From the NCBI GenBank assembly GCA_021295715.1, contig JAGWBV010000013.1, positions 54,918-96,790 on the forward strand: a stretch of 41,873 nt of DNA, given 5' to 3'. The stretch's first letter is position 1. Each line of letters opens with the position of its first letter. Positions 41,425 to 41,873 of this stretch are shown piece by piece. The position numbers were made by a program, and so were the translations under genes. A model generated the notes under the pieces. That model was not told the origin of the DNA. It worked only from the letters and a program-made list of their open reading frames with translations, and made no database searches. The stretch comes from Candidatus Poribacteria bacterium. Lineage in GTDB: Bacteria > Poribacteria > WGA-4E > WGA-3G.

Positions 41425-41438
41425 TTTTAGCGTATTTC

Positions 41439-41479
41439 GGTGTCAAAACCCCTGAATTCATTCAGAGGATGTAGACACC
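41439..41479. other. Nested hairpin between the TonB receptor and the TnpB element
   Basis: The inner stem CCCCTGAAT (41449-41457) pairs with ATTCAGAGG (41460-41468), one pair being G-T, with a 2-base loop. The outer stem is GGTGTC (41439-41444) with GACACC (41474-41479). It is either the left-end palindrome of the insertion element or a leader structure for the receptor, whose ATG is 14 bases away. Confidence 0.55.
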
Positions 41480-41516
41480 GCCTTGGTTAATTAGACCAAA
41501 CCGTTGAAAAATAAAT

Positions 41517-41545
41517 TTGACTTTCGGTCTAAAATGTTGTATAAT
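41517..41545 (+). promoter_or_regulatory. Near-perfect sigma-70 promoter of the TnpB element
   Basis: TTGACT (41517-41522), 17-base spacer, TATAAT (41540-41545). The predicted start near 41552 places the structured region at the very 5' end of the transcript. Confidence 0.65.
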
Positions 41546-41560
41546 TAAGAGTATCACAGT

Positions 41561-41614
41561 GGCAGACAGTTCAAGCGTAACCGCAAGGTTACGTGTCTGC
41601 CTACCCACTTGAAC
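41561..41614 (+). ncRNA. Candidate structured RNA with pseudoknot in the TnpB leader
   Basis: The outer stem is GGCAGACA (41561-41568) with TGTCTGCC (41594-41601). The inner stem is CGTAACC (41576-41582) with GGTTACG (41587-41593), closed by a GCAA tetraloop. The bulged GTTCAAG (41569-41575) is exactly complementary to CTTGAAC (41608-41614), which would make a 7-base-pair pseudoknot. All three helices are perfect. It could be a noncoding RNA, a regulatory leader or a DNA structure used in transposition. Confidence 0.5.
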
Positions 41615-41643
41615 GGGGTTAAACCTGTGGTCTGTGAAAGTCC

Positions 41644-41873
41644 ATGCGAAACACGACACATAAACTTTTCAAGGATAAAACGTTACGTCATTTGCGCGAC
41701 GCGTGTAATATCTGTGGCGTTGTGCGGAATCACTTCCTTGCCCTCTGTATGCGATATTACCGAAGATATGGCAAGGGAGTGTCCTATCGCAAAATGTCTG
41801 CCCATTTGACGAAACTCAAGAAACTTGAGAAATACAAGCATTGGAATATCCCTTACGCGTGGTCATTACAAAA
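41644..41873 (+). CDS. TnpB/IS605 OrfB-type RNA-guided nuclease family protein (N-terminal part)
   Basis: The ATG at 41644 opens a frame to the window end (76 codons visible). The sequence from HKLFKDKTLRHLRDACNICG onward resembles the TnpB N-terminus; RNHFLALCMRYYRRYGKGVS and KLKKLEKYKHWNIPYAWSLQ match the typical pattern in which an N-H-x-x-A-L-x-x-R-Y-Y block is followed by a K-L-K/W-N block. The RuvC catalytic residues lie beyond the window. No strong ribosome-binding site is visible. TnpB proteins are transposon-encoded endonucleases guided by an omega RNA. Confidence 0.7.
   Translation, partial: MRNTTHKLFKDKTLRHLRDACNICGVVRNHFLALCMRYYRRYGKGVSYRKMSAHLTKLKKLEKYKHWNIPYAWSLQ

Follow-up and report, generated by a model that had tools for sequence, protein, structure and literature searches.

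The last few hundred bases of a 41,873-nucleotide stretch from Candidatus Poribacteria (G000:C13:54918-96790, hereafter the window) raise the question of what a structured, pseudoknotted RNA does directly before a TnpB gene. For TnpB, the omega RNA, or reRNA, derives from the tnpB 3' end together with the element's right end, its guide being taken from flanking DNA (PMC8612924), and HEARO, the guide RNA of IscB, lies in the IscB 5' UTR (PMC9755519). The first-pass annotation of the window had suggested that this might be a 5' structured RNA of the element, which would be unusual for the TnpB type, or else a leader controlling TnpB. Its promoter, its two helices and its pseudoknot were found at exactly the positions it gave, and two features were new, namely the P4 helix and a 5'-terminal strand with two alternative partners. 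The features of the region are as follows:

41517-41545, + strand: promoter, consisting of TTGACT (41517-41522), a 17-base spacer and TATAAT (41540-41545); read from the sequence; almost every copy, also before genes other than tnpB, has TTGACA- and TATAAT-like boxes at the corresponding position
41550-41646, + strand: structured leader RNA (models R1/R2/R3), about 95 nt long, whose last 3 bases are the TnpB start codon
41552-41559, + strand: 5'-terminal strand of P0 (TATCACAG), common to two partners; from alignments and pairing comparisons
41561-41601, + strand: P1 (8 bp, 41561-41568 / 41594-41601) around the 5' pseudoknot strand (41569-41575) and P2 (7 bp, 41576-41582 / 41587-41593, GCAA loop); from covariation
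41603-41619, + strand: P4 hairpin (ACCC/GGGT, 41603-41606 / 41616-41619), with the 3' strand of the 7-bp pseudoknot (41608-41614) in its loop; from paired changes in other copies
41625-41631, + strand: proximal P0 partner; covarying pairing
41632-41637, + strand: distal P0 partner, ending 6 bases 5' of the start codon; covarying pairing
41644-41873, + strand: 5' end of the TnpB gene, cut after 76 codons by the contig end

Transcription would start at about 41551-41553, as judged from the sequence. The RNA fold of 41550-41645, with the pseudoknot left out, had an energy of -35.1 kcal/mol (z -3.42), and none of 200 shuffles folded as well. In a search of its own genome, the window leader scored 102.6 bits against model R1 (E 1.1e-24).

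To judge the fold across copies, we aligned 12 related leaders on sequence, without structural input. In this alignment, 97.7% of the pair cells were formed, two-sided changes occurred in 17 of 30 pairs, which none of 500 shuffles matched, and 5 of the 7 pseudoknot pairs covaried; when the alignment was shifted by 1-3 columns, the pair cells formed dropped to 27-42%. A 57-leader alignment gave 94.4% of pair cells formed and two-sided changes in 31 of 34 pairs; like the larger ones, and unlike the 12-leader one, it had been fitted with a covariance model, which biases it towards structure. The two-sided changes in the two alignments totaled 57 and 367. The pseudoknot appeared as GTTCAAG/CTTGAAC, TTTCCAG/CTGGAAA, TAACGAG/CTCGTTA and TGTTTAG/CTAAACA, and the P4 strands changed in concert across copies (ACCC/GGGU, UCCC/GGGA, ACCG/CGGU and GCCU/AGGU). 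Considering that compensatory change in related copies is this strong, a real family of structured leaders with a conserved RNA fold is well supported by the comparisons. The covarying fold lies in the 5' UTR, on the sense strand and in register with promoter and gene, as would be expected of a structured cis-acting leader RNA. Few unpaired bases are universal in the family, and its shape is better conserved than its unpaired bases. The diverged g3 and g8 forms are without the unpaired UAAA kept in other copies, which argues against a single fixed ligand pocket. In L023/L040 and L176, P2 carries an inserted extra hairpin (CCCCC...GGGG), and the remaining fold is undisturbed.

The 5'-terminal strand can pair with either of two tandem sequences further downstream, and each of the two pairings shows covariation. 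Of 163 distinct leaders, 73% contained the complement of the 5' strand as two exact 5-base copies, compared with 2% after shuffling of the 3' parts and 14% after joining the 5' and 3' parts of different leaders. The tandem was kept through a full change of sequence (TTGTCTTTC / GAAAGACA-GAAAGACAA) and also in L315, where a 5-base spacer separates the two copies, so that copying slippage alone is insufficient to explain it. There are also copies with just one P0 partner (L517, L523 and TnpB remnants). When each P0 state was forced in folds that ignore the pseudoknot, the two states lay within 3 kcal/mol of each other in 27 of 52 leaders, with the proximal one favored by a median of 2.2. Two exclusive pairings that share one strand, as in a riboswitch, are thus present at the level of sequence and folding energy. 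In the tails of L350-L383, the distal P0 copy is followed on its 3' side by AAUCCAA, a conserved sequence that is present even where there is no start codon at that place.

In an exact-pattern scan over 84,980 species, all 80 contigs among the matches listed were from Candidatus Poribacteria, a group described chiefly from marine sponges. With a model based on diverse members, about 880 copies were found in 59 of 84 Poribacteria genomes (the sum of per-genome counts, with up to 48 per genome), for which the calibrated E-values are rough. The leader occurs in 4 of 21 Poribacteria genera, three of them in one family and one in another. Most copies lie upstream of TnpB, and in the complete genome G023 and in G028 the matches read precede TnpB genes or apparent TnpB remnants. 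With its promoter and tandem P0 strands, the leader also heads a large family of small signal-peptide/membrane proteins. This family (L114-L143; 91-160 aa, MKTIL..ELTDADLNKIRLIVKEEV) has very many copies in Poribacteria, some of them with the leader. In genomes with few TnpB copies, the leader was found before seven N6/N4 DNA methylases, two of which have HNH domains, and before three GIY-YIG nucleases, a TIR protein, AbiTii and a nucleotidyltransferase. PADLOC added a type II restriction enzyme and the candidate defence families PDC-S09, PDC-S15 (a second gene) and PDC-S31, and gave no match on 10 ordinary window proteins used as a control. Several proteins downstream of leaders have no assignment, and among the matches the weakest (E 0.001-0.05) may be partly in error. 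Methylases gave 8-38 detected matches per genome and the leader stood at 1 of 30 sampled methylase loci, and therefore marks a subset of them. The first-pass view of a structured leader thus stands as far as its position before TnpB and its covarying fold are concerned, whereas control of TnpB is too narrow a role, since this RNA is also found at the head of methylase, nuclease, anti-phage and small membrane-protein genes.

Based on these results, we propose a cis-acting leader in which two mutually exclusive 5' clamps exert two-state control over expression, a reading to which the sequence comparisons give about an even chance of being right. The RNA would start at, or within 2 bases of, the 5'-terminal helix strand, just behind the conserved promoter. 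By comparison, its core consists of P1-P2 and P4, with the 7-bp pseudoknot joining the P1-P2 junction to the P4 loop, and its first 8 bases can pair with either tandem copy, the coding sequence following directly or within a few tens of bases. As alternatives of similar energy that would rule each other out, the two pairings would permit two states. In the proximal state, the pseudoknotted core would be closed and the region 5' of the start codon free, and in the distal state a helix would cover the region just 5' of the start codon and hinder ribosome entry. A Shine-Dalgarno-like motif was present in 1 of 52 leader-TnpB genes versus 39% of long frames, a comparison set with approximate starts that includes some leader genes. 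With no such motif under the distal helix, classical masking of the Shine-Dalgarno sequence is excluded, and the translational step would have to be steric. In some cargo genes (L125, L351 and L419), the gene has a Shine-Dalgarno sequence of its own downstream of the leader, which indicates that the 3' border of the leader is set by the RNA and not by the start codon. We infer that the P0 pairings exclude each other in vivo and affect the ribosome, and that a signal may shift them, for which a ligand, a protein, stress, infection or ribosome traffic would be candidates.

Translational riboswitches and ribosomal-protein leaders with pseudoknots likewise lie in the 5' UTR, where alternative helices that exclude each other use one strand in common next to the start codon. 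The present leader differs in that the shared strand is 5'-terminal, no Shine-Dalgarno sequence is masked and the cargo consists of mobile and defence genes. The leader travels with such cargo and is swapped between unrelated genes, and it has the look of a portable RNA-based control of mobile and defence genes. As a tentative and rather doubtful extension, one portable switch may sense a common signal, be it infection, arrival in a new cell or the state of growth, and set TnpB, methylase, restriction, abortive-infection and phage genes together. The leader represents an RNA family absent from catalogues and present in hundreds of copies, whose three-strand covariation has the appearance of a built-in switch. 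It also flags a gene set whose RNA-guided nucleases, DNA methylases and anti-phage genes have one leader in common. Control of mobile and defence genes in a largely uncultured phylum thereby becomes testable by a reporter.

The strongest rival to two-state control is protection of the 5' end. Here the triphosphate end would be locked in P0 with 0-2 free bases, the pseudoknot would block 5'-end-dependent decay of the mRNA, and the second partner would keep the lock while a ribosome occupies the other one. The inclusion of the very 5' end in P0 beside a conserved promoter and a shape conserved beyond the unpaired bases agree with such a role, and protection would benefit all of the unrelated cargo. 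However, a simple 5' stem would suffice for it and the complex core would be unexplained, and we consider protection unlikely.

Two-state control was also weighed against an action of the leader on RNA polymerase. Both put RNA of phage HK022 and EAR are folded RNAs at or near the transcript start. A leader of this kind would, on emerging, act on the polymerase and let it transcribe foreign cargo past termination sites, and the present one is pseudoknotted, stands at the transcript start of phage and mobile genes and occurs on a phage contig. A short core pattern had 87 matches, mostly by chance, when viral sequences were scanned, and only L419 passed the covariance model. L419 is contig IMGVR_UViG_3300009929_000002, which carries the leader twice (896-1000 and 2575-2669). 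These leaders precede a DNA methylase and a secreted nuclease-like protein, and the contig has portal, head and baseplate genes. Against an action on polymerase, the leader usually lies directly before a single gene and the tandem P0 partners by the start codon would be unexplained. We hold this reading to be improbable.

Several ribozyme classes have compact pseudoknotted folds near mobile genes, and the leader shares both the fold type and the location. A self-cleaving or otherwise catalytic RNA, or one that acts in trans, is nevertheless very improbable, considering that few unpaired bases are universal and that no Rfam ribozyme was matched. With the window and 15 loci as queries, no Rfam family, HEARO (RF02033) included, scored above its gathering cut-off, and a search by E-value gave DdR14 alone (E 2.2), on the opposite strand. 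No paper on this leader RNA was found in the literature that was searched. An HDV-like fold was also considered and set aside. Its strand order is similar (P1, pseudoknot strand, P2 hairpin, P1' and second pseudoknot strand), but P2 ends in a tetraloop, P4 and P0 have no equivalent in HDV and there is no Rfam match. For a group I intron or IStron, the leader is too short and gave no match. An integron attC-like site, which the varied cargo had suggested, seems unlikely, as the pseudoknot, the promoter and the absence of attC core sites count against it.

Less probable than a catalytic RNA is a 5' omega RNA, for which the position as in HEARO/IscB (PMC9755519) and the location upstream of TnpB in most copies could be cited. 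The TnpB frame of the window is cut at the end of the contig, which is 96,790 bases long, and its class was therefore taken from sister copies. The window query of 374 bases (leader and gene start) is 81% identical to the L010 copy, whose full-length TnpB (L010:1186-2400) has OrfB_IS605 and Cas12f1-like_TNB domains, as in TnpB-only IS1341-type members of IS200/IS605. Sister elements have no tnpA. A folded and covarying 3' RNA that runs into a standard right-end hairpin was seen in the single TnpB group analyzed. The omega RNA of these elements is thus a separate, standard 3' RNA, and the leader differs from it in lying 5', in lacking a guide position and in being common to other genes. It shares with HEARO its place 5' of a transposon-encoded nuclease and differs in its absence from Rfam and in its partners, which are TnpB and many others. 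RAGATH-18 is a guide RNA with IS607 TnpB upstream of it (PMC11061315); the leader likewise adjoins TnpB as a conserved RNA and differs in being 5' of TnpB and not a guide. Furthermore, the divergence of the leader is largely uncoupled from that of TnpB (TnpB pairs 24% identical had leaders up to 89% identical; Spearman 0.26), many cargo genes are not tnpB and the leader does not end at the element boundary. The suggestion that a 5' omega RNA replaces the 3' one was therefore abandoned, which cautions against taking every structured RNA 5' of TnpB for a guide.

Two-state control by the leader has also to be reconciled with copies in which the fold is incomplete. The own genome of the window has 15 DNA-similar copies, some of which match in the leader only and have a different TnpB behind it, and the leader is present at 13 of 30 TnpB places. 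P1/P2 are lacking in L012/L048 (L012:2519-2933), of which L012 is an own-genome copy, and L052 has lost P4 and a pseudoknot strand. Long intact TnpB frames follow these leaders, which indicates that the gene can be retained without the full fold.

Y1-type elements use hairpins at the element ends, and the last reading takes the leader itself as single-strand DNA folds of the left end. A left-end hairpin does lie about 80 bases upstream:

41438-41480, + strand: IS200/IS605-like left-end hairpin (outer stem CGGTGTC/GACACCG, inner hairpin CCCCTGAATTCATTCAGAGG), conserved in sister copies and outside the leader RNA

This hairpin is separate, and the leader, always on the sense strand with its promoter in register, also stands before non-transposon genes without an end hairpin, so that an account of the 5' hairpins as transposon-end DNA fails and merits almost no credence. 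Similar hairpins are found at the left and right ends of sister copies. TATCAC ends many right ends (L010, L012, L013 and L054) and begins many leaders as TATCAC or TATCAA, which may be chance. The own genome has a single Y1 transposase, at C32, beside a TnpB without the leader. This transposase (G000:C32:27265-28690) may move TnpB-only elements in trans.
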